Assembly: GCF_900111745.1 (NCBI RefSeq)
Contig: NZ_FOIJ01000010.1
Location: 186,001 to 250,000 of the forward strand
DNA length: 64,000 nt
Reading direction: 5' to 3'
From: Stigmatella erecta
GTDB taxonomy: Bacteria; Myxococcota; Myxococcia; Myxococcales; Myxococcaceae
Shown: positions 16,956 to 59,477 of the stretch, piece by piece
How the letters are laid out: the number at the start of each line of letters is the position of its first letter
Numbering within the stretch: position 1 is the first letter of the stretch
Made by a program: the position numbers and the translations under genes
The notes under the pieces: generated by a model
Told to the model about the DNA's origin: nothing
Seen by the model: the letters and a program-made list of their open reading frames with translations, nothing else
The model's database searches: none

Positions 16956-17182
16956 ACTAGAGAGGGCTTGCCTCTTCGCGACCTCCCCAGGCGGGCAGGG
17001 TAGGCTTTCTGTGGATGTTGGAATCTTCCCTAGACACCCGGTACGGCCCCGGGTCTGCTGGTGGCCGCCGACCCCGGGGGGCGGGTACGAAGCACATGCC
17101 GATTCCAGACCGATGTGCCGCTTTGCCTTCGGACACCAAGGGCTCATGCCCGCCTCATTTCTTCTGCAGGAAGAACCACGAC
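16956..17182 (+). promoter_or_regulatory. leader/promoter region of the second OmpA operon
   Basis: Part of a 311-base gap between the OmpA paralogues. After the terminator it holds a long GC-rich stretch with a possible CCGGGTC/GACCCCGG hairpin around 17050-17085. No convincing -35/-10 pair or small gene was found. The ATG at 17183 has AGGAAG about ten bases upstream. Confidence 0.35.
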
Positions 17183-19102
17183 ATGATTGATGCTTTGCTC
17201 TCCACGGACCCGTCGCGGGCTCCCGGCCGCCGTGCGCGTTGGGGTGGTCTCCGCTCCCTGCCCGCGCTGGCGGGTTGTCTTCTGCCGCTGCTGAGCGCCA
17301 CCGCGCTGGCTCAGCCCGCGGGGTTGCCCGAGATTGAAATCGAGCGCCTGACGCTGAACCCCAGCGGCGCGGGCTCGCTGGTGCTGGGCACCGGTGAGCT
17401 GCTGCGGGGCGGGGGCTACCGGTTCTCCCTCACGGGCCACTACGAGAATGATCCGCTCGTGCTCTTCGAGGGCGACGCGCGCGTGGGCCCCGTGGTGCAG
17501 CACCGCGTGACGGGCCACCTGGCGGGCGCGTATGGCCTGACGGACTGGTTGGAAGTGCAGCTGCAGGTGCCCGTGCTGGTGTTGCAGCGTGGAGAGGACC
17601 TGACGGCGCGGGGCGTGGGCCGGCCCGAGGAGGGGCTGTCGCTGGGCACCCCGTCGGTGGGGCTGCGGCTGGGGCTGCTGTCTCAGGAGGATGGGGATGC
17701 GCTGGATTTGGCGGTGGGCGCGAACCTGGGGCTGCCGGTGGGCAACGCCGATGCGCTCGCACGGGAGCCCTCGCTGAGGGTCACCCCGAGCGTGATGCTG
17801 GGCCGGCGCCTGGGCTTCCTGCGGGCCTCGCTCGACGCGGGGGCGCTGCTGCGCAAGCGCACCCTCTTCAGTGATGACGCCGATGTGCGCGACGAGGTGG
17901 GCGACGCGATCCGCCTGGGCGCGACGCTGGCCACCACGGGCGAGGGGCTTCGCGGGGAAGTGGATGTCATTGGCCTGATTCCCTTCCGGCGCGAGGGGGA
18001 GAGCATCGAGGCGCTGGCCGGCTTGCGGCTGCCCTTGGGCCGCCACGTCGAGGCCTATGCGCTGGGCGGGGTGGGCTTTGGGGATTCGCCCGGTACGCCC
18101 ACCTTCCGTGGCCTGGTGGGCCTGGCGATTGGCAGCGGCGCCCCGGTGGCGTGCGTGGCGGGGGGCAACCACACGCCCTCGCAGTGCCCGGACCTGGATG
18201 ACGACGAGGACGGGGTGAAGAACCGGAACGATGCGTGCCCCGAGGAGGGCGGCGAGGTGGATGCGCGGGGCTGCCCCGAGCACGAGGTGGACTCGGACGG
18301 GGACGGCATCCTGGATGTGCGGGATGCGTGCCCCACGGTGGCCGGCGAGCCCGTACACCAGGGCTGCCCGGACACCGACAAGGACGGCATCCCGGACGAG
18401 GCGGACGCTTGTCCCGCGGCGCCGGGCCTGGCGGCGTTCAAGGGCTGCCCGGACACGGACCGGGACGGGCTCCAGGATTCGCAGGACGCGTGCCCCACGG
18501 AGGCGGGTCCCGCGAACCGCAAGGGCTGCCCGTCCAAGGACACGGACGGGGACGGCGTGCTGGACGAGCAGGATGCCTGCCCGGGCGAGGCGGGCCTGCG
18601 GGAACTGAAGGGCTGCCCGGCCAAGGACACGGACAACGACACGGTGGCGGACCACCTGGACAACTGCCCGAACGAGGCGGGCCCGGCGAACAACCAGGGC
18701 TGCCCGGCCAAGCAGAAGCAGCTGGTGGCCATCCGGCAGGACCGCCTCGACATCAAGGACACGGTCTACTTCGACAGCGGCAAGGCGACCATCCAGCGCC
18801 GCAGCTTCAAGCTGCTGGATCAGGTGGCCAAGCTGCTGAAGGAGCACCCGGAGCTGGAGCAGGTCACCATCGAGGGCCACACGGACAACGTGGGCAAGCC
18901 CGAGGCGAACCTCCGGCTGTCCCAGCACCGCGCCGAGGCGGTGAAGGACTACCTGGCCCGCAAGGGCGTGGCGCCGCAGCGTCTGGAAGCGAAGGGCTAC
19001 GGGCAGGAGCGGCCCATTGCCCCCAACACGACCCCGAAGGGGCGGTCCATCAACCGCCGCGTCGAATTCCTCACCACGACCCGCGAGGGCGCACAGCAGT
19101 AA
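17183..19102 (+). CDS. OmpA-family outer-membrane protein with thrombospondin type 3 repeats (paralogue)
   Basis: 639 residues and a clear paralogue of the gene at 14958: both mature proteins begin AQPAGLPE and continue with a shared SGAGSLVLGTG block. Signal peptide, N-terminal beta domain, Asp-rich type 3 repeats (about 336-510, for example DTDGDGVLDEQDACP) and an OmpA domain (about 520-632, EGHTDNVGKPEANLRLSQHR) are in the same order. The repeat and OmpA regions are closest; the barrel part has diverged. Only 18 bases separate it from the Ig-array gene, so the two are probably co-transcribed, suggesting a cell-wall-anchored outer-membrane partner for that surface protein. Confidence 0.93.
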   Translation: MIDALLSTDPSRAPGRRARWGGLRSLPALAGCLLPLLSATALAQPAGLPEIEIERLTLNPSGAGSLVLGTGELLRGGGYRFSLTGHYENDPLVLFEGDARVGPVVQHRVTGHLAGAYGLTDWLEVQLQVPVLVLQRGEDLTARGVGRPEEGLSLGTPSVGLRLGLLSQEDGDALDLAVGANLGLPVGNADALAREPSLRVTPSVMLGRRLGFLRASLDAGALLRKRTLFSDDADVRDEVGDAIRLGATLATTGEGLRGEVDVIGLIPFRREGESIEALAGLRLPLGRHVEAYALGGVGFGDSPGTPTFRGLVGLAIGSGAPVACVAGGNHTPSQCPDLDDDEDGVKNRNDACPEEGGEVDARGCPEHEVDSDGDGILDVRDACPTVAGEPVHQGCPDTDKDGIPDEADACPAAPGLAAFKGCPDTDRDGLQDSQDACPTEAGPANRKGCPSKDTDGDGVLDEQDACPGEAGLRELKGCPAKDTDNDTVADHLDNCPNEAGPANNQGCPAKQKQLVAIRQDRLDIKDTVYFDSGKATIQRRSFKLLDQVAKLLKEHPELEQVTIEGHTDNVGKPEANLRLSQHRAEAVKDYLARKGVAPQRLEAKGYGQERPIAPNTTPKGRSINRRVEFLTTTREGAQQ

Positions 19103-19120
19103 TCGCGGGAGACGACCCAC

Positions 19121-22100
19121 ATGAACTCTGCCTTCTTGAAGAACTCCTTGCGCACCGCGCTCCTGGCGCTCCTGGCCTGCGCGCTGCCCGCGCTGGCCGC
19201 GCCCGACAACGTCCTCCTGGGCACCGGGCGGGACGGGGCCTTCGCCGCTGGTTCGCTCAACCAGGTCATCAACCGCTATGCCCAGGTGACGGTGCCCCGC
19301 GCGCCGGGCGATACGACGCTCACGGTGGGCGATGCCACGGGCTTCGCCGTGGGCCAACTGGTGATGGTCATCCAGATGACGGGCATCGTCCCCGAGCCGC
19401 CCTCGGGCGGGACGGGGCCGATTGATCTCAGCAACGATCCGGTGGGCCGCTGGGAGTTCGCGCGCCTGTCTGCGGTGTCGGGCACGACGCTGACGGTGAA
19501 CGCGCCGCTCATCCACTCGTACGCGGCGAACGTCACCCAGGTCATCTGGGTGCCCGAGTACACCACGGTGAACATTGGTACGGGCCGCTCGCTCACCGCA
19601 GCCGTGTGGAACGGGACTACCGGCGGCGTGCTGGCCTTCCTGGCCACGGGCGCGGTGACGAACCTGGGCGGCATCACCGTTTCGGGCAAGGGCTTCCGGG
19701 GCGGTAAGCCCGTGGTGGACACCAGTGGCACCACGGGGTGCGGCGGCCTGGACGAGGCGCCCCCGGCGGGGGCTCAGAAGGGCGAAGGCGTCGCCTTCAC
19801 GCGCTATGGGCCGCTGCAGACGGGCCGGGGCGAGGTGGCCAACGGCGGTGGTGGTGGCGTGTGCTTGAAGTCCGGCGGTGGCGGCGGTGGCAACGCGGGC
19901 TCCGGCGGCCAGGGCGGCAACAGCTACCTGGATGAGTTTGGGACGGAGGACAGTGGCAACCGGCCGGTGGGAGGCGTGGGAGGGCTGGCGCTGACGCTGT
20001 CGCTGGCTGACCGCCTGATGATGGGCGGCGGCGGTGGCGCGGGGCACTCCACGGACGGCACCAGCCGGCCGGGCGGTGAGGGCGGCGGTATCCTCTTCAT
20101 CCGTGCCACGCAGATGACCGGAGTAGGCACGGTGACGGCCAACGGATTGTCCGTGACGCCCAGCAGTGGCACGGATGCGGCGGGCGGTGGCGGTGCCGGA
20201 GGCAGCGCCTACCTGCGGTTCGCCACCACGGCGGCGACCACGCCTCCGTGTGGCATCTGGCAGTCCACGGGTGGCCGGGGCGGTGACGCGGACCTGGAGG
20301 TCGGTCCTGGCGGTGGTGGCGGTGGCGGCCGGATCTACTACCAGCGGGCGGGAACCACCTGCCTTCCCTCGGGAACTGCCGCGATTGGTGCGACCCCGGG
20401 TGGCCAGCCCAATCCGGCCGTGGGCACCTCCTATGGCGCGCAGTCCGGCACCAACGGCTCGACGGTCCGGGTCGCGGGCTCCTATCCGACGGCGCTTCCG
20501 CCCACGCCCGTGGTGGTGACGCCGGCCAACGGCTCGCTGACGAACAACCCCACGCCCACGTACACCGGCACGCTTCCGACGCCCTTCCCCGCGGGCACCC
20601 AGGTGGCCGTGTTCGTGGATGGCGCTCAGGTCGCCCTGGTGACGCCGTCGGCGTCCGGGGACTGGAGCGTGGCGCCCGGCACGTCGCTGGGCCAGGGGCC
20701 GCACACCGTCTATGCCGTGGCCTTCCTCCCGGATCAGGTGGTGTACGGCAACTCGAGCAACACCAATACCTTCACCGTGGACAGCATCCCTCCGGCCGCG
20801 CCCGTGGTGTCGACGCCCGCCAATGGCTCGACCACCAACGACAGCACGCCGGCCTACAGCGGCACGGCGGAGCCCGGGAGCACCGTCACCATCATCGTGG
20901 ATGGCACGACCGTGGGCACCGCCGTCACGACGCCGGGGGGCAGCTGGACGTTCACGCCCACCACGCCGCTGCCGGATGGGCCGCATACGGTGAGCGCCAC
21001 GGCCACGGATGCCGCGGGCAACACCGGTCCTGCCTCCAACACCAACACCTTCACCGTGGACACGACGCCTCCGGCCGCGCCCGTGGTGTCGACGCCCGCC
21101 AATGGCTCGACCACCAACGACAGCACGCCCACCTACAGCGGCACGGCGGAGCCCGGCAGCACCGTCACCATCATCGTGGATGGCACCCCGGTGGGCACCG
21201 CCGTCACGACGCCGGGAGGCAACTGGACGTTCACGCCCACCACGCCGCTGCCCGATGGGCCGCACACGGTGAGCGCCACCGCCACGGACGCCGTGGGCAA
21301 CACCGGTCCCGCCTCCAGCCCGAATACCTTCACCGTGGACACCACCGCGCCGGCCGCGCCCGTGGTGACGACGCCCGCCAATGGCTCGACCACCAACGAC
21401 ACCACGCCCACCTACAGCGGTACGGCGGAGGCGGGCAGCACGGTCACCATCATCGTGGATGGCACCGCCGTGGGCACCACCACCGCGACGCCGGGGGGCA
21501 CCTGGACGTTCACGCCCACCACGCCGCTGGCCGATGGGCCGCACACGGTGAGCGCCACCGCCACGGACACCGCGGGCAACACCAGCCCTGCCTCCAACAC
21601 CAATACCTTCACCGTGGACACCACCGAGCCGATCGCGCCCGTGGTGTTGACGCCCGGGAACTTCTCGACCACCAACGACAGCACGCCCACCTACAGCGGT
21701 ACGGCGGAGCCCGGCAGCACCGTCACCGTCATCGTGGATGGCACCGTCGTGGGCACTGCTGTCACGACGCCGGGCGGTACCTGGACGTTCACGCCCACCA
21801 CGCCGCTGCCGGACGGGCAGCACTCGGTGCGCGCCACGGCCACGGATGCCGCGGGCAACACCAGCCCCGCCTCCAACACCAATGTCTTCACCGTGGACAC
21901 CACCGCGCCGGCCGCGCCCGTGGTGACGACGCCCGCCAACAACTCGGTGACCAACGACAACACGCCGACCTACAGCGGCACGGCGGAGCCGGGCAGCACC
22001 GTCACCGTCTATGTGGATGGCTCGCCCGTGGGCACCGCCGTCACGACGCCGGGGGGCACCTGGACGTTCACGCCCACCACGCCGCTGGTGGAGGGCTCGC

Positions 22101-24259
22101 ACACGGTGAGCGCCACCGCCACGGACACCGCGGGCAACACCGGTCCTGCCTCCAACACCAATGTCTTCATCGTGGACACCGCCGCGCCGGCCGCCCCCGT
22201 GGTGTCGACGCCTGCCAATGGCTCGACCACCAGCGACACCACGCCCACCTACAGCGGCACGGCGGAGGCGGGCAGCACCGTCACCGTCTATGTGGATGGC
22301 ACCGCCGTGGGCACCACCACCGCGGCGCCGGGGGGCACCTGGACGTTCACGCCCACCACGCCGCTGGCCGATGGGCCGCACACGGTGAACGTCACCGCCA
22401 CGGATGGCGCGGGCAACACCAGCCCCGCTTCCAACACCAACACCTTCACCGTGGACACCGCCGCGCCGGCCGCGCCCGTGGTGACGACGCCTGCCAATGG
22501 CTCGCTCATCAATGACGCCACGCCCACCTACAGCGGCACGGCGGAGCCGGGCAGCACCGTCACCGTCATCGTGGATGGCACCTCCGTGGGCACCGCCACC
22601 GCGGATGCCAGCGGCAACTGGAGCTTCACGCCCACCACGCCGCTGGCCGAAGGCCCGCACACGGTGAGCGCCACGGCCACGGATGCCGCGGGCAACACCA
22701 GCCCTGCCTCCAACACCAACACCTTCACCGTGGACACCGCCGCGCCGGCCGCCCCCGTGGTGGTGACGCCCGCCAACGGCTCGACCACCAGCGACAACAC
22801 GCCCACCTACAGTGGCACGGCCGAGCCGGGCTCCACCGTCACCGTCATCGTGGATGGCACCTCCGTGGGCACCACCACCGCGGATGCCAGCGGCAACTGG
22901 ACCCTCACGCCCACCGCGGGGCTGGCCTCCGGCCCCCACACGGTGAGCGCCACGGCCACGGATGCCGCGGGCAACACCAGCCCCGCCTCCAACACCAATA
23001 CCTTCACCGTGGACGCGGATCCGCCGGGCGCGCCCGTGGTGGTGACGCCCGCCAATGGCTCGGTCACCAACGACACCACGCCCACCTTCTCGGGCACCGC
23101 CGAGCCGGGCACCACGGTGACGCTGTCGCTGGGGGGCACCGAGTACGCCACCGGCATCCCCGTGGATGCCAGCGGCAACTGGAGCTACACCCCCACCGCG
23201 CCGCTGCCCGATGGCACCTACGCGGTGAGCGCCGTGGCCATCGACGCGGTCGGCAACGCCAGCCCCGCCTCCAACACCAACACCTTCACCGTGGACGCCA
23301 CGGCCCCCACCGCGCCGGTCATCACCTCGCCGGCCGATGGGTCCAGCACCGGGGACACCACGCCCACCATCTCGGGCACCGCCGAGCCGGGCACCACCGT
23401 GACGGTCATCATCGACGGCACGCCGGTGGGCACTGTCCCCGTGGACGCCAGCGGCAACTGGAGCTACACGCCCACCACGCCGCTCTCCGAGGGCCCGCAC
23501 ACCGTCACCGCCACCGCCACCGACCCGGCGGGCAACACGGGGCCCGCGCCGGCGCCCGTCGACTTCATCGTCGATGAGAGCCTGCCCGGCACGCCGGAGG
23601 TCACCAGCCCCACCGACGGCTCGGCGACCAACGACCCCACGCCCGTCATCTCCGGCACCGCCGAGCCGGGCACCACCGTGACGGTCACCATCGACGGCAC
23701 GGTGGTGGGCACCGCCCCCGTGGACGCCGCGGGCAACTGGACGTTCACGCCCCCCGCTCCGCTCTCCGACGGCCCCCACACCGTCACCGTCACCGCCACG
23801 GACATCACGGGCAACGTCAGCGCCCCCTCCATCCCGGTCACCTTCACCGTGGACACGGCCGCGCCGGAGACGGAGATCGTCTCCGGGCCCGAGGGCTCCA
23901 CCCCGGACCGGGACGCCACGTTCAGCTTCTCCTCCAACGAGGAGGGCGTGACGTACGAGTGCAGCCTGGACGGCGGGGACTTCGTGCCCTGCACCAACCC
24001 CGTCACCTTCCCGGGGCTGGCCGAGGGCGGCCACGTCCTCGAGGTGCGGGCCCGGGATGCGGCCGGCAACGTGGATGGCACCCCGGCCACCCGCACCTGG
24101 ACCGTCACCGGCCCGGGCGAGGAGCCCCCCCCGGGCGATGACCTGAACTTCCTCGGCGACGGCATGGGCTGTGCGTCGGCGGGGAGCTCGCCGTCCTCCC
24201 TGGCGGTGATGGGCCTGGCGCTGCTCGCGGCGCTCGGCTTCCGCCGCCGCCGGGCGTAG
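19121..24259 (+). CDS. giant secreted surface protein with tandem Ig-like repeats and MYXO-CTERM-like tail
   Basis: 1712 residues. Signal peptide (LLALLACALPALAA), then a globular N-terminal domain (about 25-230), a glycine-rich region (about 230-430) and about twelve bacterial Ig-like domains of 93 residues each (about 460-1580). Most contain TPTYSGTAEPGSTV and W-F-TPTTPL. A divergent Ig-like unit with two Cys (ECSLDGGDFVPC) follows. The C-terminus has MGCASAGSS, a hydrophobic helix and RRRR, the pattern of the myxobacterial MYXO-CTERM surface-sorting signal. ATG 19121 has GGGAGA eight bases upstream. Probably an adhesin or motility-related surface protein; similarity to proteins named AgmC in gliding screens is possible but unverified. 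Confidence 0.92.
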   Translation: MNSAFLKNSLRTALLALLACALPALAAPDNVLLGTGRDGAFAAGSLNQVINRYAQVTVPRAPGDTTLTVGDATGFAVGQLVMVIQMTGIVPEPPSGGTGPIDLSNDPVGRWEFARLSAVSGTTLTVNAPLIHSYAANVTQVIWVPEYTTVNIGTGRSLTAAVWNGTTGGVLAFLATGAVTNLGGITVSGKGFRGGKPVVDTSGTTGCGGLDEAPPAGAQKGEGVAFTRYGPLQTGRGEVANGGGGGVCLKSGGGGGGNAGSGGQGGNSYLDEFGTEDSGNRPVGGVGGLALTLSLADRLMMGGGGGAGHSTDGTSRPGGEGGGILFIRATQMTGVGTVTANGLSVTPSSGTDAAGGGGAGGSAYLRFATTAATTPPCGIWQSTGGRGGDADLEVGPGGGGGGGRIYYQRAGTTCLPSGTAAIGATPGGQPNPAVGTSYGAQSGTNGSTVRVAGSYPTALPPTPVVVTPANGSLTNNPTPTYTGTLPTPFPAGTQVAVFVDGAQVALVTPSASGDWSVAPGTSLGQGPHTVYAVAFLPDQVVYGNSSNTNTFTVDSIPPAAPVVSTPANGSTTNDSTPAYSGTAEPGSTVTIIVDGTTVGTAVTTPGGSWTFTPTTPLPDGPHTVSATATDAAGNTGPASNTNTFTVDTTPPAAPVVSTPANGSTTNDSTPTYSGTAEPGSTVTIIVDGTPVGTAVTTPGGNWTFTPTTPLPDGPHTVSATATDAVGNTGPASSPNTFTVDTTAPAAPVVTTPANGSTTNDTTPTYSGTAEAGSTVTIIVDGTAVGTTTATPGGTWTFTPTTPLADGPHTVSATATDTAGNTSPASNTNTFTVDTTEPIAPVVLTPGNFSTTNDSTPTYSGTAEPGSTVTVIVDGTVVGTAVTTPGGTWTFTPTTPLPDGQHSVRATATDAAGNTSPASNTNVFTVDTTAPAAPVVTTPANNSVTNDNTPTYSGTAEPGSTVTVYVDGSPVGTAVTTPGGTWTFTPTTPLVEGSHTVSATATDTAGNTGPASNTNVFIVDTAAPAAPVVSTPANGSTTSDTTPTYSGTAEAGSTVTVYVDGTAVGTTTAAPGGTWTFTPTTPLADGPHTVNVTATDGAGNTSPASNTNTFTVDTAAPAAPVVTTPANGSLINDATPTYSGTAEPGSTVTVIVDGTSVGTATADASGNWSFTPTTPLAEGPHTVSATATDAAGNTSPASNTNTFTVDTAAPAAPVVVTPANGSTTSDNTPTYSGTAEPGSTVTVIVDGTSVGTTTADASGNWTLTPTAGLASGPHTVSATATDAAGNTSPASNTNTFTVDADPPGAPVVVTPANGSVTNDTTPTFSGTAEPGTTVTLSLGGTEYATGIPVDASGNWSYTPTAPLPDGTYAVSAVAIDAVGNASPASNTNTFTVDATAPTAPVITSPADGSSTGDTTPTISGTAEPGTTVTVIIDGTPVGTVPVDASGNWSYTPTTPLSEGPHTVTATATDPAGNTGPAPAPVDFIVDESLPGTPEVTSPTDGSATNDPTPVISGTAEPGTTVTVTIDGTVVGTAPVDAAGNWTFTPPAPLSDGPHTVTVTATDITGNVSAPSIPVTFTVDTAAPETEIVSGPEGSTPDRDATFSFSSNEEGVTYECSLDGGDFVPCTNPVTFPGLAEGGHVLEVRARDAAGNVDGTPATRTWTVTGPGEEPPPGDDLNFLGDGMGCASAGSSPSSLAVMGLALLAALGFRRRRA
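20789..23857 (+). repeat. tandem array of 279-base coding repeats (11 units)
   Basis: Near-identical 279-base units begin at 20789, 21068, 21347, 21626, 21905, 22184, 22463 and 22742, and continue with increasing divergence to about 23857. Each encodes one 93-residue Ig-like domain. Central units are most alike, which suggests expansion by unequal recombination. Not a CRISPR array: units are coding and have no spacers. Confidence 0.92.
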
Positions 24260-24448
24260 GCCCCGGCGGTTCCTGGCACGGCCGCCGGTGGCAGGTTCGC
24301 TGGCGGCCGTCCCCCCTGGGGGGTAGGACCGGGCCCCGAAGCCCGGGAATCCAGGGCCCCCCGGGTTCACCCCGAGGGGCCTGCCGGGCAGGCCTTCACT
24401 CTCGGCTCACCCCGCGTGGGCCCGATGGGGTACGATTCAACCCTCTCG

Positions 24449-25915
24449 ATGAGTTCCTCCAGCCCCCTCTTCGGCGACCTTCTGCTCAAGCTTGGCATCG
24501 TCACGCCCAGCCAGGTCCAGGAGGCCCTCGCGCTCCAGCCCCGCACGGGCCAGCGCGTGGGCGAGGCGCTCATCTCCCTGGGCTACGTCACCCGGGCGCA
24601 GCTCCACGACGCGCTGAGCGAGGCGCTGGGGCTCAACACCGACAAGGCCCCCGCGCACGCGCCCCTGGGCGAGCTGCTGGTGGGGCTCAAGTACATCACC
24701 CTGGGACAGCTCGAGGAGGCGCTCGCCTTCCAGCGCAAGGATGGGCGCAAGCTGGGCGAAATCCTGGTGGAGATGGGCCACTGCACCTACCGGCAAATCT
24801 ACGAGGCGCTGAGCCTCCAGGGCCGGATTACCGGCCGCCAGGAGGCCCCCCGCCAGGTGCTCCAGGGCCACCACCGGGTGATGGTGGTGGATGACAGCCC
24901 GCTTGCGTGCGACTTCGTGAAGGAGGGGCTGGAGGCGCTGGGGCTGGGCTACGAGGTGATGTGCTTCCAGGACCCGTACGAGGCGCTGGAGCAGGTGGGC
25001 AAGGTGCAGCCGGCCATCGTCCTGTCGGACCTGGACATGCCGGGCATCGACGGGCTGGAGCTGTGCTGGCGGCTCAAGGAGAGCCCCTCCCGGCAGGTGC
25101 CCGTCATCATCCTCACCGCCAACGACAGCGAGGCCGAGCGCGTGAAGGGCCTGCGCGCGGGCGCCGACGACTACGTGAACAAGTCGGCCTCCATGGCGGA
25201 GCTGTCGGCGCGGATTGAAAGCGTCATGCGCCGCACGAGCGAGACGGAGCGCATGCGCAAGCTGTTCGCGCGCTACACGTCCGACGCGGTGGTGGAGGAG
25301 ATCCTCAAGAGCCCGGACACCGTGGTGCTCACCGGCGAGAAGCGCGAGGTGACGGTGCTCTTCGCGGACATCCGCAACTTCACGGGCCTGGCCGAGAGCC
25401 TTCCCCCCGAGCAGGTGGTGGGCGTGCTCAACCAGGTGCTCGGCCGGCTCTCGGACGCGGTGCTCACCTGCGGGGGCACGCTGGACAAGTTCCTGGGCGA
25501 TGGGCTGATGGCGGTGTGGGGCGCGCCCGTGCACCGCACGGACGATGCGCTCCGGGCGCTCCAGGCCGCCAAGATGATGATGTCGGCCATGGTGGAACTG
25601 CGCCAGGCGGCCCAGGCCGAGTGGGCCGCCAACGAGCGCCTGGGCAGGCCGCTGGTGCTGGAGCTGGGCATCGGCATCAACTCGGGGCTGGCGGTGGCCG
25701 GCAACATCGGCGGCTCCATGCGCACCGAGTACACGTGCATTGGCGACGCGGTGAACGTGGCCGCGCGGCTGTGCGCCCTGGCGGGCCCGGGAGAAATCCT
25801 GGCGGGCGAGCGCACGCGGGAGCTCGTCTCCAACCGGGAGATGCCCTTCGAGGACTTGCCCCCGGTGCGGCTCAAGGGCAAACAGCAGCCCGTGCCGCTC
25901 TACCGCGTGTTGTGA
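24449..25915 (+). CDS. class III adenylate cyclase with MshEN-like repeats and receiver domain
   Basis: 488 residues from ATG 24449 (GTG 24416 and ATG 24425 are alternatives; no start has a strong ribosome site). The N-terminus has four helical repeats of the MshEN/GspE-N type (for example [21 protein letters not shown]), a module that binds c-di-GMP in MshE. Then comes a receiver (VMVVDDSP, phosphoacceptor in LSDLDMPG, Lys in VNKSAS). The C-terminal class III cyclase domain shows metal Asp in [10 protein letters not shown] and [11 protein letters not shown], an adenine-selecting Lys in DKFLGDG, Thr in EYTCIGD, and the transition-state Asn/Arg in [10 protein letters not shown]. It should make cAMP from ATP under phosphorylation control, possibly with c-di-GMP input. 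A GspG-like gene follows four bases after its stop. Confidence 0.92.
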
Positions 25916-25919
25916 GGCC

Positions 25920-26315
25920 ATGACCGAGTCCCCCCCGCAGGTTGCTCCCGGCCCCCGCCCCGCGCGGCTGCTGCTCGTGGTGGCCCTGATTCTGGCCGCC
26001 GTCGCCGTGCCCACCACCCTGGCCCTGAGGGGCCAGCGGGACCCCTCGTACGCGCGCGTCCACGCGGACTTCGCGGTGCTGAAGGCCGCCGCGGAGAAGT
26101 ACCAGGCGGCCCACGGCACGCTGCCGGAGGAGGGGCCGCTCGACTTCCTGGTGCCCGAGTACCTCCCCGCGCTGCCGCTGGACCCGTGGGGGCGCCCCTA
26201 CGTGTTCCTGTACAACGGCCGGCAGGTGTTCCTGGCCACCTTCGGCGCGGATGGGCAGCGGGGCGGCTCCGGGGCAGAGCAGGACCACACCATCCACGAC
26301 GGCCACTCGCCCTGA
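25920..26315 (+). CDS. membrane-anchored GspG-like protein without prepilin cleavage site
   Basis: 131 residues. One N-terminal membrane helix (LLLVVALILAAVAVP, about 19-33), then a domain with the features of type II secretion major pseudopilin GspG: a helix with KAAAEKYQAAHGTLP, the LPLDPWGRPYVF strand, and a calcium-loop-like FGADGQRGGSGAEQDHTI near the end. The canonical G-F-T-L-x-E prepilin motif before the helix is missing, so it is unlikely to be processed by prepilin peptidase. Four bases after the cyclase, hence probably one operon. It may be a static membrane protein borrowing the GspG fold. Confidence 0.82.
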   Translation: MTESPPQVAPGPRPARLLLVVALILAAVAVPTTLALRGQRDPSYARVHADFAVLKAAAEKYQAAHGTLPEEGPLDFLVPEYLPALPLDPWGRPYVFLYNGRQVFLATFGADGQRGGSGAEQDHTIHDGHSP

Positions 26316-26457
26316 AGCTCCGCCTTCCCTGAACACCCGTTCAACCCCGGGGGCCCCGGGCCGGAAAATCGGCCCCGCGGGGCCACACCGTTCGACGGAC
26401 AACCCACCGGGGCGTTAGACTGGGGGGAACCTGACTTACAGGGAAGGAAGGTCTGCC

Positions 26458-27048
26458 GTGTTGAATCCCCGCGGGTATGGCGAAGAGGAGCTGGTCTCCA
26501 ACCGCGCGTCACTGCTGCTCTACGGGGGGACGGAGGAGGAGAGGCGTTCCTGGGCGCAGGAGGCCGCGTACCACTTCGAGCACGAGGGCGCGCTGGTGGA
26601 GGTCCGCCAGGCGGCGGAGCTGGCCCCGGCGCTGCAACGCCCCAAGGGCGTGGTGTTCATTCCGGACGTGTCCAAGCTGGGGCGGGAGGCGCAGGGCGCC
26701 ATCCTGCGGTGTCTGCAGACGCAGGAGGAGCGGCCCAAGCTGGTGGTGGCCATCCTCGGCTCGGCGGATGCGGCGCTGGAGCGCGGGGTGCTGCGCGACG
26801 ACTTGCACTACCGGCTGCACCAGGCGCAGGTGAACCTGGCCCAGCCCGGGCTGCGCGAGACGCTGAAGGAGCGCTGGGCGCGGCTGGCGGAGCTGCGCGC
26901 GGTGAAGGAGGCGGAGGCGCGCGCGGCGGCCGAGCGGGATTTGCAGGCGGCGATGAACCGCGCGCCCGGCACGGTGACGCGGCTCACGCCCCAGCAGCGC
27001 AAGGCGCAGGGCGTGAAGGCCCCGGCGCGCAAGACGGGCCGCCGGTAG
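26458..27048 (+). CDS. degenerate sigma-54-activator-like AAA+ domain protein
   Basis: 196 residues from GTG 26458, with a strong GGAAGGAAGG ribosome site seven bases upstream. The middle resembles the second half of a sigma-54 AAA+ domain: GVVFIPDVSKLGREAQGAIL in the Walker B position, then RDDLHYRLHQAQVNLAQPGL, as in the FRxDLYYRLxxxxIxLPPL segment. Walker A and the GAFTGA loop are absent, and the Walker B acid is reduced to a single Asp. The C-terminus is a basic helical tail. It cannot be a normal ATPase activator; it may be an inhibitor or adaptor of true activators. Confidence 0.72.
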   Translation: MLNPRGYGEEELVSNRASLLLYGGTEEERRSWAQEAAYHFEHEGALVEVRQAAELAPALQRPKGVVFIPDVSKLGREAQGAILRCLQTQEERPKLVVAILGSADAALERGVLRDDLHYRLHQAQVNLAQPGLRETLKERWARLAELRAVKEAEARAAAERDLQAAMNRAPGTVTRLTPQQRKAQGVKAPARKTGRR

Positions 27049-28161: not shown

Positions 28162-28267
28162 GACTGTCCTCACTTGAGAGAAATCTCGGTTTGTTGCCAA
28201 AGGTAGTCATGAAGCGGTGAGTGGGAAGCGGGGGGAGGGGTGGATCCTCCTCAAAGGAGTGGAGGCC

Positions 28268-28801
28268 ATGCGGCTGGAGCTTTGGCTTGGAGACATCACG
28301 GCGGTGGCGGCGGACGCCATCGTCAACGCGGCGAACAGCTCCCTGCTGGGCGGAGGGGGCGTGGATGGCGCCATCCACCGCGCGGCGGGGCCGGCGTTGC
28401 TGGAGGAGTGCCGCACGCTGGGCGGGTGCCCTACGGGCGAGGCGCGCATCACCCGGGGCTACCGGCTGCCCGCGCGCCACGTCATCCACACGGTGGGCCC
28501 GCGCTGGCAGGGCGGGGAGCGGGGCGAGCCCGCGCTGTTGGCGCGCTGCTACCAGAGCGTCTTCGCGCTCGTGGAGGCGCACGGGCTGCGCACGGTGGCC
28601 TTTCCCTCCATCTCCACGGGCATCTACGGGTACCCCCTGGCGCAGGCCGCGCGCATCGCGCTGCGGGAGATCCACGCGGCGCTCGCGCGGCTGCCTGGGG
28701 TGGAGAAGGTGACGGCGGTGCTCTTCAGCCCGGTGGACCTGGACGTGTACCGGCAAGCGCTGGCGGACGTGTCCGGGGGCCGGGGAGGCGTGCCCGGGTG
28801 A
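28268..28801 (+). CDS. macro-domain protein (O-acetyl-ADP-ribose deacetylase family)
   Basis: 177 residues comprising one macro domain. The ADP-ribose-binding signature is complete: [19 protein letters not shown], the [16 protein letters not shown] catalytic loop, HTVGP, and the phosphate loop [11 protein letters not shown]. This matches the YmdB/MacroD type, which hydrolyses O-acetyl-ADP-ribose and mono-ADP-ribosyl groups. ATG 28268 has AAAGGAG eight bases upstream. The next gene, a methyltransferase, starts inside its stop (GTGA), so the two are translationally coupled. Confidence 0.95.
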
Positions 28802-47269: not shown

Positions 47270-50260
47270 ATGCCACGGACGATGAGCCCTCCGGAACCTC
47301 CGGCCGGTCCGGGCGGCCATGGGCTCGAGGCGATCTTCCCAGGCTCCAGCGAGATGGCCGGGCGCATGCGGGCCAAGGACTGGCTGGCCACGCTGCTAGG
47401 CCCGGTCACGCAATGGCCCCAGTCGCTGCGCACGGCGGTGAGCGTGATGCTCGCCTCGCCCGAGCCCGCGCTCATCTACTGGGGCCGTGAGCTGGTGGTG
47501 CTCTACAACGACAGCGCGCGGTTCATGCTGGGCCACAAGCACCCGGATGGGCTCGGGGTGAGCTTCAAGATCGTGTTCCAGGAGAGCTGGCCGCTCCTGG
47601 GCCCTATGCTGGAGCGGGTGCTCGACACCGGCGAGCCCGTCCACAACGAGAACCTCCTCGTTCCGCTGGTGCGCTTCGGGTTCCTCGAGGACTGTTACTT
47701 CACGTTCTCCTACATCCCCACGCGGGAGGAGAGCACCGGCGTGGGCGGCGTCTTCGTCATCGTGACCGACACGACGGCGCAGGTGCTTGGCGCGCGGCGG
47801 CTGGCGCTCCTGCGGGAGCTGTCCCTGCGCGCGGCGCTCTGCGAGACGGTGGAGGCCGTCCTTCGTGCGTCAGAGGCGGTGCTGGCCCAGTCCTCGGCGG
47901 ACCTTCCCTTCAGCCTCCTGTACGCACTGCGGGGCGAGCGCGCCCAGCTCCTCTTCCGCACGGGGCTCGCGCAGGCGCCCGCAGGAGACGGCCTGGAGGC
48001 GGGCGGTGCGTGGCCGCTCGCGGAGGTGGCGCGCTCCCGGCAAGAGCAGCTCGTGGAGCACGTGCTGGGCGGGTCCTCCAGCGAGGCCCCGGTCCAGGCG
48101 CTGGTGCTGCCGCTCTCCGGCGCGTCCGAGGAAGAGGCCCGCCTGGTGCTCGTCGTCGGGCTCAACCCCCGCATCGCGCTGAACGCCGACACCCGGAGCT
48201 TCCTGCAACTGCTCGCCCGGCAGCTCGCCACGAGCATCGAGAGCACCCGCTCGCTGGAGGAGAAGACCCAGCGCGCCGCGCAGCTCGCCGAGCTCGACCG
48301 GCAGAAGACGCAGTTCTTCTCCAACGTGAGCCACGAGCTGCGCACGCCGCTGACGCTGATGCTGGGGCCGCTGGAGGATGCCCTCTCGGACACGCGCGAG
48401 CCGCTGCCCGGCGCCCAGCACCAGCGGGTGTCGCTCGTGCAGCGGGGCGCCGTCCGGCTGCTGAAGCTCGTCAACCAGCTGCTCGAGTTCACCCGGTTCG
48501 AGGCGGGGCGCGCGCAGGTCCGCTTCCACGCGGTGGACCTCTCGCGGCTCACCCTGGAGCTGGTGGGGCACTTCGAGTCCGCCGCGCGCCGGGCGGGCCT
48601 CACGCTGTCCCTGGACTGCCCGCCGCTGGGCGAGCCGGTCTGGGTGGACCGCGAGGCGTGGGAGCGCATCGTCTTCAACCTGCTGTCCAACGCCTTCAAG
48701 TTCACCTTCGAGGGTGGCCTCACGGTGAGCCTGCGGCGGGAGGGCGAGGCGGCCGTGCTTCGCGTCCGGGACACCGGGACGGGCATGCCCCCGGAGGCGC
48801 TGCCGCGCCTGTTCCAGCGCTTCTACCGGGTGGAGGGCGCGCAGGGCCGCAGCTTCGAGGGCAGCGGCATCGGCCTGTCCCTGGTGCAGGAGCTGGTGAA
48901 GCTGCACGGCGGCGAGGTGGGCGTGTGGAGCCGCCCCGGCGAGGGCAGCGAGTTCACGGTGCGCCTGCCACGAGGCTCCGGCCACCTGCCCGCGGACCGG
49001 CTCTCGCACGAGGCCAGCCCGGGGCAGGGCAATGCCTTCCTGCGCGACAGCTCCGTGCAGGAAGTGGAGAGCTGGATTCCTCGCGTGCCCGAGGCCGCCT
49101 CGCCGTCCCTGCCCGAGGCGGCCCCGCCGGTGGCGGGTGCACGGGGACCGGCGGGGCCGGGGGGCCGGGTCCTCATCGTGGACGACAACGCGGACCTGCG
49201 CGCGTACCTCACCAGCGTGCTGTCGCCCCACTTCGAGGTGGAGACGGCCGGGGATGGGCAGGAGGCGCTGGAGGCCCTGCGCCGGCACGCGCCGGACGTG
49301 GTGGTGAGCGATGTGATGATGCCGAGGCTCGGCGGCTTCGGGCTCCTGCGGGCCATCCGGGAGGACCCGGGGCTGCGCGCCACGCCGCTCATCCTGCTGT
49401 CGGCGCGGGCGGGAGAGGAGGCCAGCGTGGAGGGGCTGGAGGCGGGCGCGGATGACTACCTCGTCAAGCCCTTCAGCGGCCGGGAGCTGCTGGCGCGGGT
49501 GCAGACCCAGCTCTCCATGTCCCGGATGCGCGCCGAGGCCGCGCTCCAGTGGGGCCGGGAGCTGGCGCTCAAGGAGGCGGTGCAGGCCCGGGACGACTTC
49601 CTCTCCGTGGCGAGCCACGAGCTGAAGACGCCGCTCACGGGGCTGAAGCTGCACCTGGAGATGCTGGAGCGGATGCTGCCGGGGGCCCTGCGCGCGAAGG
49701 CCGCGGAGCGGTTCGCGAGCGCCCGGAGGCAGGCCCAGCGCATGGGCGCGCTGGTGGAGTCGCTGCTGGATGTGTCCCAGGTGGCGTCCGGACGGCTCCA
49801 GCTTCACCGCGAGCGCACGGATGTGATGGCGCTGGTGGCGGACTGCCTCGCGCAGAGCCAGGAGGCGCTCCTGCAGGCGGGCTGCACCGTCACGTTCGAG
49901 GCCCGGGCGCCGCTGTTCGCGGAGGTGGATCCGGTGCGCCTGGAGCAGCTCGTGCGCCACCTGCTGTCCAACGCGGCCAAGTACGGCGCGGGGAAGCCGG
50001 TGGAGGTGCACCTCGGCGAGGTGGGCGCGCAGCTGCGGCTCGGGGTGGTGGACCACGGCATGGGCGTGAAGCCGGAGGACCGCGAGCGCATCTTCGGGCG
50101 CTTCGAGCGGGCCGTCTCCGTGCGCCGCTTCGGGGGCTTCGGGCTCGGGCTGTGGGTGTCGCGCCAGGTGGTGGAGGCGCACGGGGGCAGCATCGAGGTG
50201 ACGGACACGCCCGGCGGCGGGGCCACCTTCACGGTCCTGCTGCCCCGCCAGGCGCGGTGA
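47270..50260 (+). CDS. hybrid sensor kinase with two histidine kinase modules flanking a receiver
   Basis: 996 residues. PAS-like domain (about 25-170), GAF-like domain (about 180-330), first kinase module with FFSNVSHELRTPLTLMLGP and ATP-lid GSGIGLSLVQELVKLHGG. A receiver follows (about 640-760; VLIVDDNADLR, VVSDVMMPRLGG, LVKPFSG). The second kinase module has FLSVASHELKTPLTGLKLH and FGLGLWVSRQVVEAHGG. No membrane helix. Order kinase-receiver-kinase implies an internal relay, the first module phosphorylating the receiver that gates the second. ATG 47282 is an alternative start. Output partner unknown. Confidence 0.93.
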   Translation: MPRTMSPPEPPAGPGGHGLEAIFPGSSEMAGRMRAKDWLATLLGPVTQWPQSLRTAVSVMLASPEPALIYWGRELVVLYNDSARFMLGHKHPDGLGVSFKIVFQESWPLLGPMLERVLDTGEPVHNENLLVPLVRFGFLEDCYFTFSYIPTREESTGVGGVFVIVTDTTAQVLGARRLALLRELSLRAALCETVEAVLRASEAVLAQSSADLPFSLLYALRGERAQLLFRTGLAQAPAGDGLEAGGAWPLAEVARSRQEQLVEHVLGGSSSEAPVQALVLPLSGASEEEARLVLVVGLNPRIALNADTRSFLQLLARQLATSIESTRSLEEKTQRAAQLAELDRQKTQFFSNVSHELRTPLTLMLGPLEDALSDTREPLPGAQHQRVSLVQRGAVRLLKLVNQLLEFTRFEAGRAQVRFHAVDLSRLTLELVGHFESAARRAGLTLSLDCPPLGEPVWVDREAWERIVFNLLSNAFKFTFEGGLTVSLRREGEAAVLRVRDTGTGMPPEALPRLFQRFYRVEGAQGRSFEGSGIGLSLVQELVKLHGGEVGVWSRPGEGSEFTVRLPRGSGHLPADRLSHEASPGQGNAFLRDSSVQEVESWIPRVPEAASPSLPEAAPPVAGARGPAGPGGRVLIVDDNADLRAYLTSVLSPHFEVETAGDGQEALEALRRHAPDVVVSDVMMPRLGGFGLLRAIREDPGLRATPLILLSARAGEEASVEGLEAGADDYLVKPFSGRELLARVQTQLSMSRMRAEAALQWGRELALKEAVQARDDFLSVASHELKTPLTGLKLHLEMLERMLPGALRAKAAERFASARRQAQRMGALVESLLDVSQVASGRLQLHRERTDVMALVADCLAQSQEALLQAGCTVTFEARAPLFAEVDPVRLEQLVRHLLSNAAKYGAGKPVEVHLGEVGAQLRLGVVDHGMGVKPEDRERIFGRFERAVSVRRFGGFGLGLWVSRQVVEAHGGSIEVTDTPGGGATFTVLLPRQAR

Positions 50261-55991: not shown

Positions 55992-58900
55992 ATGGACGAC
56001 TTTGGTACATCTACCCGCAACCGCATGAATTCTCTTGAATCCTCCGTCATGGACTCATCAAGCACAACGCTCCCCCTGGCGGGCTCCATGGGATGGGAGT
56101 TCCTCGTCGAGAGCCTGCCCGATGCGGTGCTCGTGCTGGAGCGCGACTGGCGCATCACCGCCCTCAACGGGGTGGCCGAGGGCATCATCGGGCGCTCCCG
56201 GGACACCTTGGTGGGCCACAGCCTGTGGACGGAACTGCCGGAGCTGGCGGAGGCTCCCTTGGGCGCAGCCCTGCGCGCGGCCCTGGCCAGCGGTGAGCGC
56301 AGCACGCACACGGGCCACTTCGCGCCCTTTGGCGCGTGGTTCGAGGCGCGGCTCGTTCCCCAGGCTGGGGGGCTGGTGGTCTTCATCCGGGACGTCTCCC
56401 CGCTGCACGAGGCGGAGCTGGAGCGGAGCCGGCTGGTGGCCGCCGAGCGCGCCGCGTCCGAGCGGGCCGAGCAGGCCGCGCACCGGCTCACGCGCCTGCA
56501 GGAGTTCACCGCGCGCCTGTCCGCCGCGCGCTCGCCGGAAGAGGTGACGCAGCAGACGGTGGCGTCCGCCATGGCGGCGGTGGGCGCGACGCTGGCCATG
56601 GTGGGCGTGCCCACCGAGACGCTGCGCACCCTGCGGATGGCGGCCTGCCTGGGCGCGCCCTCCCAGGTCCTGCGGGAGTACCAGGTGCTGCCGCTGGATG
56701 CGCCGCTGCCCATGTCGGTGGCCTTCCAGGGCGAGGCGGAGTGGGTGGAGTCTCCCGAGGCGCTGGGGGCGCGCTACCCGGGGCTGGCGAAGACGCTCGC
56801 GGGCAACGCGCGGGCGCACGCGCTGGCGAGCCTGCCGCTGGCGGTGGAGGGGCGGGTGCTGGGGGTGCTGACGCTGTGCTACCCCGAGCCGCGCGCCTTC
56901 ACGGCGGAGGAGCGGGAGTTCCTGATGGCCCTGGCGCGGCACAGCGCGCTGGCGCTGGACCGGGCGCGGCTCTTGGCGGAGGGCGAGACGCAGCGCGCGC
57001 GGCTGGAGGAGCTGGTGATGTGCGCCCCGGCGGTGGTGTCCGTCACGCGCGGCTCGGGGCACCGCTACGTGCTGTGCAACCCGCGCTACCGGCAGCTCCT
57101 GGGCGGCAAGGATTTGACGGGCATGTCCGCGCGCGAGGCCGTGCCGGTGCTGGAGGGCCAGGGCGTCTTCGAGGCGATGGACCGGGTGTACGAGACGGGG
57201 GAGCCCTTCATCAGCAAGGAGTTCCCGGTGCGGCTGGGGCCCAAGTCGGACGTGCCCTCGGAGGCCTTCTTCGACTTCGTCCACCAGCCGCTGCGGGACT
57301 CCGAGGGGCGGGTGGAGGGCATCGCCACGTTCGCCTTCGACGTGACGGACCAGGTGCTGGCGCGGCGCACGGTGGAGGAGCTGCTGCGGGACATGGCGCG
57401 CAGCGAGGAGCGCTTCCGCGCGTTCCTCACCGCCACCTCGGAGATCATCTGGGACATGCCGCCCCAGGGCGGGTTCGACTCGGATCAGCCCGGCTGGCGG
57501 GCCTTCACGGGCCAGTCGCGCGAGGCGCTGCTGGGCTGGGGCTGGCTGGACGCGGTGCACCCGGAGGACCGGCAGGGCACCCAGCAGGCCTGGCGCGAGG
57601 CGGTGAAGGCCGGCACGCTCTTCCAGAACGAGGTGCGGCTGCGGCGGCAGGACGGGATGTACCGCCACATGCAGATGCGCGCGGTGCCGGTGCTGGAGCT
57701 GGACGGCACGGTGCGCGAGTGGGTGGGCATCCACCGCGACATCACCCGCCAGCGCGAGGACGAGGTGGAGCGGGCGCGGCTCTTGTCGCGCGAGCAGCGG
57801 CACCGGGCGCAGCTCCAGGGGCTGGCGGCGGCGTCGCTGGCCATTGGCCAGGCGGCCTCGCTGGACGCGGTGCTGCTGGTCATCACCGAGCAGGCCCGCG
57901 AGCTCATCGGCGCGCACCAGTCCGTCACCAGCCTGACGACGGGCGAGGACGGGGCACAGTCCATCAGCGCGGTGTCGCTGTCGGAGAAGTACTCGCAGTA
58001 CCGGGGCTACTCGCCGCGGGCGGACGGCTGGGGGTTCTCGGCGCAGGTGTGCCGGACGAACCGGCCCCTGCGCATGGCGCAGCCGGAGCTGGAGGCGCAC
58101 CCGGCGTGGCGGAGCCTGGGCACGTCCGAGGCGGAGCACCCGCCCCCGCGCGGGTGGCTCGCGGTGCCGCTGGTGGGCAGCAGCGGCAGCAACCTGGGGC
58201 TCATCCAGCTGTCGGACCGGCACGAGGGGGACTTCACCGCGGAGGACGAGGCCATCCTGGTGCAGCTGGCGCGCATGGCCTCGGTGGCCATCGAGAACGC
58301 GCGGCTGATGGCGGAGTCCCAGGCGGCCAACCGCGCGAAGGACGAGTTCCTGGCGGTGATGAGCCACGAGCTGCGCACGCCGCTCACGGCGGTGCTGGGC
58401 TGGACGCAGATGCTGCGCACGCGCCGCGGTGACGCGGCCATCCAGGAGAAGGGGCTGGATGTCATCGAGCGCAACGCGCGCTCGCTGGCGCAGCTCATCG
58501 AGGACGTGCTGGACGTGTCGCGCATCCTCACGGGCAAGCTGGCGCTGCACCAGCGCGCGGTGGACCTGGCCGGGGTGGTGCAGGCGGCGGTGGAGGTGGT
58601 GCGGCCCCGGGCGGAGCAGAAGGGCGTGGCGCTGGTGCTGGAGGCGGTGGGGGGCGGGGGGATGGTGACGGGGGACCCGGGCCGGTTGCAGCAGGTGTTC
58701 TGGAACCTGCTGGTGAACGCGGTGAAGTTCACCCCGGCCGGCGGGCGGGTGGAAGTGCGGATGGAGCGGGACAACGCCGAGTGGCGGGTGTGGATCAAGG
58801 ACTCGGGGCAGGGCATCCGGGTGGAGGCGCTGCCGCACCTCTTCGAGCGCTTCTGGCAGGCGGACGGCAGCAGCACGCGGGAGCACGGCGGGCTGGGACT

Positions 58901-59477
58901 GGGGCTGGCCATCGTGCGGCACCTGGTGGAGCTGCACCGGGGCGAGGTGGAGGCGGAGAGCGCGGGGCTGGGCCATGGCTCCACCTTCACGGTGCGCCTG
59001 CCGGTGCCGGCCCTGCTGCCCGAGCCGGAGCGCGCGGCCACGGCCGCGGAGGGCGGGGTGCCCCAGGTGCGGCTGGACGGGGTGCGCGTGCTGCTGGTGG
59101 AGGACGCGGAGGACGCGCGCGAGCTCATCACCCTGCTGCTCAGGGACCGGGGCGCCCAGGTGCGCGCGGTGGTCAACGCCCGCGAGGCGATGGAGAGCCT
59201 GGAGGCGGACTTGCCGGACGTGGTGGTGTCGGACATCGGCCTGCCGGGCGAGGACGGCCATGCCCTGCTCAAGCGGATGCGGGCGTGGGCGGAGGCGAGG
59301 GACCAGTGGCTGCCGGCCATCGCGCTGACGGCGTACGCGGGGGCGGAGGACGCGCGGCGGGCCTACCGGGCGGGCTTCCAGGTCCACATGGCCAAGCCGC
59401 TGGAGTCGGAGGCGCTGGTGGAGTCCGTGGCCCGGCTGGCGGCGCGGGACCGGGAGGCGGGGCCGCACGCGGGGTGA
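55992..59477 (+). CDS. multi-PAS/GAF hybrid histidine kinase with C-terminal receiver
   Basis: 1161 residues, cytoplasmic. Order: PAS (about 35-150), GAF (about 170-320), PAS (about 330-455), PAS (about 470-590, with PAC motif WVGIHRDITRQRE), GAF (about 620-770), HisKA with FLAVMSHELRTPLTAVLGW, HATPase (LVNAVKFTPAGG, GLGLGLAIVRHLVELHRG) and a receiver (about 1030-1150; VLLVEDAEDAREL, VVSDIGLPGEDG, MAKPLES). Reads several small-molecule or redox cues and stores phosphate on its own receiver. The start is uncertain: ATGs at 55992, 56025 and 56049 lack clear ribosome sites. Confidence 0.93.
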   Translation: MDDFGTSTRNRMNSLESSVMDSSSTTLPLAGSMGWEFLVESLPDAVLVLERDWRITALNGVAEGIIGRSRDTLVGHSLWTELPELAEAPLGAALRAALASGERSTHTGHFAPFGAWFEARLVPQAGGLVVFIRDVSPLHEAELERSRLVAAERAASERAEQAAHRLTRLQEFTARLSAARSPEEVTQQTVASAMAAVGATLAMVGVPTETLRTLRMAACLGAPSQVLREYQVLPLDAPLPMSVAFQGEAEWVESPEALGARYPGLAKTLAGNARAHALASLPLAVEGRVLGVLTLCYPEPRAFTAEEREFLMALARHSALALDRARLLAEGETQRARLEELVMCAPAVVSVTRGSGHRYVLCNPRYRQLLGGKDLTGMSAREAVPVLEGQGVFEAMDRVYETGEPFISKEFPVRLGPKSDVPSEAFFDFVHQPLRDSEGRVEGIATFAFDVTDQVLARRTVEELLRDMARSEERFRAFLTATSEIIWDMPPQGGFDSDQPGWRAFTGQSREALLGWGWLDAVHPEDRQGTQQAWREAVKAGTLFQNEVRLRRQDGMYRHMQMRAVPVLELDGTVREWVGIHRDITRQREDEVERARLLSREQRHRAQLQGLAAASLAIGQAASLDAVLLVITEQARELIGAHQSVTSLTTGEDGAQSISAVSLSEKYSQYRGYSPRADGWGFSAQVCRTNRPLRMAQPELEAHPAWRSLGTSEAEHPPPRGWLAVPLVGSSGSNLGLIQLSDRHEGDFTAEDEAILVQLARMASVAIENARLMAESQAANRAKDEFLAVMSHELRTPLTAVLGWTQMLRTRRGDAAIQEKGLDVIERNARSLAQLIEDVLDVSRILTGKLALHQRAVDLAGVVQAAVEVVRPRAEQKGVALVLEAVGGGGMVTGDPGRLQQVFWNLLVNAVKFTPAGGRVEVRMERDNAEWRVWIKDSGQGIRVEALPHLFERFWQADGSSTREHGGLGLGLAIVRHLVELHRGEVEAESAGLGHGSTFTVRLPVPALLPEPERAATAAEGGVPQVRLDGVRVLLVEDAEDARELITLLLRDRGAQVRAVVNAREAMESLEADLPDVVVSDIGLPGEDGHALLKRMRAWAEARDQWLPAIALTAYAGAEDARRAYRAGFQVHMAKPLESEALVESVARLAARDREAGPHAG

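Follow-up and report, generated by a model that had tools for sequence, protein, structure and literature searches.

Among the systems closest to the protein described here, Stigmatella aurantiaca CyaB is reportedly a receiver-linked, bicarbonate-stimulated adenylate cyclase with an active-site Thr, and to our knowledge it has been reported without any MshEN domain. On the input side, Wang et al. 2016 list fusions of the c-di-GMP-binding MshEN domain to receiver (REC) domains and to adenylate/guanylate cyclases, and give up to 22 MshEN genes for M. xanthus; the cyclase fusions are reported there as a class, and the main text of that paper contains no functional test of any of them (PMC5013675). 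The two messengers, c-di-GMP and cAMP, are usually linked via transcription, e.g., through FleQ control of cyaA (cited in PMC11139211). For the MshEN domain itself, substitutions have been studied in MshE and PilF. In MshE, changes of Arg9, Asp12, or Gln32 shift the affinity by at most about fivefold, and a change of any conserved hydrophobic residue costs more than tenfold (PMC5013675). The GSPII-B domain of PilF, where Lys and Leu replace two arginines, binds c-di-GMP with an affinity of 6 nM, in line with a motif Arg to Lys or Leu change being tolerated or even improving affinity, and binding is abolished when both terminal glutamines are changed (PMC11731258). GSPII-C has Pro at one motif start and an MshEN-like affinity. 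GSPII-A, where both terminal glutamines are replaced, does not bind, and restoration of its motif gives no rescue (PMC12002112), while XpsE is a further known non-binding MshEN domain (PMC5013675). Our literature searches by phrase turned up no paper that describes an adenylate cyclase as c-di-GMP-binding or c-di-GMP-regulated, and no report testing the function of an MshEN-cyclase fusion.

The window analyzed here, a stretch of 64,000 nucleotides of Stigmatella erecta DNA, carries a gene with the type of domain combination listed by Wang et al. 2016, followed by a gene for a GspG-like protein:

24449 to 25915, + strand: tandem MshEN, receiver, class III adenylate cyclase gene (488 aa, soluble)
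24467 to 24625, + strand: MshEN-1 (repeats A and B, residues 7-59), matched by NF053729 and predicted to be degenerate, with Phe8 for Leu and Ala59 for Gln
24662 to 24820, + strand: MshEN-2 (repeats C and D, residues 72-124), the predicted c-di-GMP site, with invariant Gln95 and Gln124, Lys/Arg at 101, and Pro72 replacing Arg/Lys/Leu
24878 to 25216, + strand: receiver domain (residues 144-256; PF00072) with D148/D149, phospho-acceptor D194, T223, and K245
25193 to 25273, + strand: predicted long helix leading from receiver to cyclase (about residues 249-275; AlphaFold2 model)
25337 to 25888, + strand: class III cyclase catalytic domain (residues 297-480; PF00211) with D307, K347, D351, T429, N436, and R440
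25920 to 26315, + strand: single-pass membrane protein with a T2SSG C-terminal region (131 aa; PF08334)
26458 to 27048, + strand: degenerate sigma54-activator-like AAA+ fragment (PF14532, E 1.6e-4, under its cut-off)

The cyclase and GspG-like genes are complete and adjacent, match the interval 24449-26315, and are separated by 4 bp. The ATG start at 24449 is supported by the orthologues, which begin MSASSPLFGD; the cyclase searches took 24446 as the start, and the residue numbers of several searches are thus one higher than those given here. We found no transmembrane segment in the cyclase protein (peak 19-residue hydropathy, 1.46). Upstream lies a 1712-aa Ig-repeat protein (19121-24259, +) that ends in a MYXO-CTERM-like tail, and a 2408-aa open frame antisense to it (17144-24370, -) is most likely a high-GC artefact.

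The preliminary description had read the cyclase protein as four MshEN-like repeats fused to a receiver and an adenylate cyclase, and this architecture was borne out. Four 24-residue repeats (residues 7-30, 36-59, 72-95, and 101-124) pair into two MshEN domains, in both of which the canonical spacer of 5 residues separates the repeats, and the NCBIfam profile NF053729 ("cyclic di-GMP-binding domain-containing protein, MshE-related") matches the protein in two stretches at 116.8 bits (cut-off 38; E 2.6e-34), which puts the assignment far above chance. A Pfam search of the protein did not detect MshEN, only the receiver (PF00072, E 6.4e-26) and the class III cyclase (PF00211, E 3.3e-22). A profile built from the orthologous N-termini and compared with PDB sequences matched PilF (2e-20), MshE 5HTL (2.5e-13), and PilB proteins too. 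In AlphaFold2 models, the N-terminus forms eight helices, four per MshEN domain, with good confidence within the domains and an uncertain relative domain orientation (pTM 0.46-0.50; 0.46 for the N-terminus alone). When the full-length model was used for a fold search, the matches listed were all cyclase or receiver structures, and we therefore modeled the N-terminus on its own. The confident Foldseek matches of this model were MshEN/GSPII structures, most of them c-di-GMP-bound, albeit with weak E-values because each target covers half of the query. The superposition with ligand-bound PilF GSPII-B (0.7 A over 55 columns, 44% identity) fits MshEN-2. The protein shares with MshE 5HTL and PilF GSPII-A/B/C the two 24-residue motifs, the 5-residue spacer, and the four-helix fold, has the terminal Gln residues in MshEN-2, and, as in PilF, combines domains in tandem with one apparently degenerate copy. 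It differs from them in that a receiver and a cyclase replace the motor ATPase, that the MshEN_C subdomain is missing, and that MshEN-2 has Pro/Ala at the first motif position.

The receiver and catalytic domains both possess complete residue sets. Among 52 distinct orthologues, which extend down to about 50% identity and underlie all residue counts given here, receiver residues D148, D149, D194, T223, and K245 are invariant (52/52), and the receiver is very probably phosphorylated. In the catalytic domain, D307, K347, D351, T429, and N436 were found in 52/52 and R440 in 51/52 (one exception), i.e., two metal Asp, the Lys/Thr base-selecting pair, and the transition-state Asn/Arg. The Lys347/Thr429 pair predicts synthesis of cAMP from ATP, a product that we consider highly likely, and membership of the bicarbonate-responsive class IIIb group: Thr429 occupies the position where class IIIa enzymes have Asp, and an active-site Thr in place of Asp goes along with a bicarbonate response. 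By fold, the catalytic domain matches CyaC and P. aeruginosa CyaB. The combination of a receiver with a predicted bicarbonate-responsive cyclase and an active-site Thr also matches what is reported for S. aurantiaca CyaB, and on a narrow balance of probability, the protein belongs to the CyaB orthologous group, the MshEN part of CyaB having gone unnoticed. One relative, which we take to be S. aurantiaca DW4/3-1, has an orthologue that is 99% identical to the cyclase protein; among the loci examined, which leave out seven weaker cyclase matches of that genome, no other cyclase showed a close receiver match. Across the cyclase loci examined here and in one relative, a close receiver match was seen only for the present gene and its orthologue. 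Furthermore, one adenylyl cyclase of S. aurantiaca is bicarbonate-stimulated (PMC3918592). CyaB membership is compatible with our main explanation; in that case, only the MshEN input would be new, the catalytic output having been described before.

The N-terminal region gave a single match per genome in 83 of the 145 genomes of the order, all within Myxococcaceae and none in the other families of the order. Named orthologues occur in Myxococcus, Corallococcus, Pyxidicoccus, Archangium, Citreicoccus, and Hyalangium, and M. xanthus AM003 has one as well, where the match is interrupted. A record titled Comamonas sp. KCTC 72670 (BNCN01000018.1, L056) holds a Myxococcus-like locus at 80% identity and is probably mislabelled or contaminated. 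Outside Myxococcaceae, matches are confined to the REC-cyclase or cyclase part, the nearest proteins start at the receiver, and the orthologue profile matched an MshEN region in 0/33 of these homologues. Like the present protein, plain REC - class III cyclases (for example L096-L100 and L104) carry the same cyclase domain behind a receiver, sharing 34-40% identity with residues about 140-489, but they begin at the receiver and lack MshEN. As the closest relatives elsewhere are plain REC-cyclases, the tandem MshEN was probably added onto an older REC-cyclase as a gain by Myxococcaceae. Since such fusions are listed by Wang et al. 2016, the novelty belongs to the conserved family and the residue-level prediction rather than to the combination of domains, and the earlier remark that no well-studied cyclase has such an input has to be corrected to this extent (PMC5013675).

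The GspG-like gene is likely co-transcribed with the cyclase gene. Its product matches PF08334 (E 4.2e-9) at profile positions 58-104, i.e., in the C-terminal part only, and scores 42.3 against the NCBIfam GspG profile, below the cut-off of 88.85. It has a single hydrophobic stretch near the N-terminus (about residues 11-38) and, like the major pseudopilin GspG, a C-terminal DPWG...GADG..GG.G region, but lacks the prepilin peptidase cleavage motif (G|FTLIE type), which the real GspG of the genome displays as RGMTLIEIMV; a GspG-type domain lacking this motif had been noted at the outset and was confirmed. In the type II secretion operon of the genome (L159, about 1165-2250), the real GspG is followed by a second GspG-like protein that has no prepilin motif and resembles the 25920-26315 product in layout. 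The GspG-like gene adjoins the cyclase in 25 of 45 named loci and is missing from deep-branching members that keep the cyclase, which makes it a lineage-restricted companion and not a defining part of the system; a role as obligate partner was rejected on the same grounds. The idea that secretion-system parts were reused for signaling is likewise unsupported or overstated, as MshEN is a general c-di-GMP module with 25 matches in this genome. The most widely conserved neighbor is the AAA+ gene, near the cyclase in 38/45 named loci, deep-branching ones included. Many relatives have a universal-stress-protein-like gene between the GspG-like gene and the AAA+ gene (compare L051:9993-11408); it is missing here (26316-26457) and in the three closest relatives, where the AAA+ gene follows directly. 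Further downstream, a macro-domain protein (28217-28801, +; PF01661, E 6.8e-48) is syntenic in many relatives.

Whether the MshEN pair could bind c-di-GMP was evaluated from its ligand residues. In MshEN-1, the first position of motif I is Leu in 36, Arg in 12, and Pro in 1 of the 52 orthologues (gap in 3), the Leu10 position is Phe in 52/52, the Gln32 position is Gln in 52/52, and motif II has Arg in 52/52 and Ala in 51/52 at the Gln61 position. With this Phe and Ala, MshEN-1 fails the extended consensus for c-di-GMP-competent MshEN domains. In MshEN-2, Gln95 and Gln124 are each present in 52/52, Leu-Gly is kept, both motif glycines are found in 52/52, and the first residue of motif II (position 101) is Lys or Arg in 51/52; departures from the binding consensus occur at position 1 of motif I (Pro in 41 and Ala in 11, i.e., 52/52) and at the motif I turn glycine (Lys, Arg, or Gln in 51/52). 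Judged by the substitutions studied in MshE and PilF, the ligand is likely to bind at MshEN-2 and probably not at MshEN-1, and our prediction is a single functional c-di-GMP site, in MshEN-2, next to a degenerate MshEN-1. The MshEN ligand residues are thus mostly conserved in MshEN-2, where both glutamines are invariant and the deviations have precedent, but not in MshEN-1, which lacks its terminal Gln in 51/52. Binding of c-di-GMP by MshEN-2 appears probable. We consider it rather unlikely that the pair no longer binds and serves as a dimerization, localization, or protein-interaction platform, with the receiver (perhaps together with bicarbonate) alone running the cyclase. The two changed positions in MshEN-1 and the two departures in MshEN-2 would fit such a loss, as would the precedents of XpsE and of PilF GSPII-A, the latter near-consensus and yet unrescued by motif restoration, but the invariance of the Gln and glycine residues of MshEN-2 down to about 50% identity is hard to explain by a purely structural role, and the closest solved structures are ligand-bound domains.

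Starting from the observed domains, residue conservation, single-copy distribution, and fold match, we infer ligand binding, a direction of its effect, dimerization, and a cognate kinase as further parts of an explanation that we modestly favor: a cytoplasmic, probably dimeric adenylate cyclase that would integrate c-di-GMP at MshEN-2 with receiver phosphorylation. The protein would combine two or three inputs. One c-di-GMP per chain would occupy MshEN-2, MshEN-1 would have lost ligand binding and act as a structural or dimerization module, and a histidine kinase would phosphorylate receiver Asp194. Both signals would run through the receiver and the following helix and alter the packing of the cyclase dimer, which would determine how fast cAMP is made from ATP. 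As possible kinase partners, the window encodes two large hybrid histidine kinases that carry receivers (47270-50260 and 55992-59477, +), 21-34 kb from the cyclase gene. Gating of the cyclase by c-di-GMP is plausible, with an about even chance that binding alters the activity, and the sign of the effect is not readable from sequence. The name "converter" given in the preliminary description is inapt because c-di-GMP, as an allosteric ligand, would not be consumed. The complete picture, a conserved cyclase gated directly by c-di-GMP and receiver phosphorylation, and possibly by bicarbonate, with one MshEN sensor and one degenerate partner, is put forward tentatively. A catalytic domain making cGMP instead of cAMP is very unlikely, since, although guanylyl cyclase Cya2 is among the closest structures, Lys347 (52/52) has a Lys counterpart in the phytochrome-cyclase chimera 6fht and a Glu counterpart in Cya2 (2w01), and together with Thr429 (52/52) forms the ATP-type pair, which disfavors a guanylate cyclase identity.

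In the genome (9.2 Mb, 47 contigs), 25 matches to MshEN and 20 to class III cyclases were counted, and its 15 GGDEF and 25 cNMP-binding matches indicate that c-di-GMP sources and candidate cAMP readers are present. The 25 MshEN matches (L001-L025) fall in ORFs of widely varied size, and several of their motifs begin with Pro (L007, L015). A 2022 study of M. xanthus counted 17 MshEN proteins, describes c-di-GMP binding by PilB and by MXAN_7500 as an open question, and reports that a rise in c-di-GMP is required for myxobacterial development (PMC8844925). If c-di-GMP gates the cyclase, one protein would directly connect c-di-GMP to cAMP in a multicellular predator, a link testable in genetically tractable myxobacteria, where most MshEN proteins are without an assigned role.
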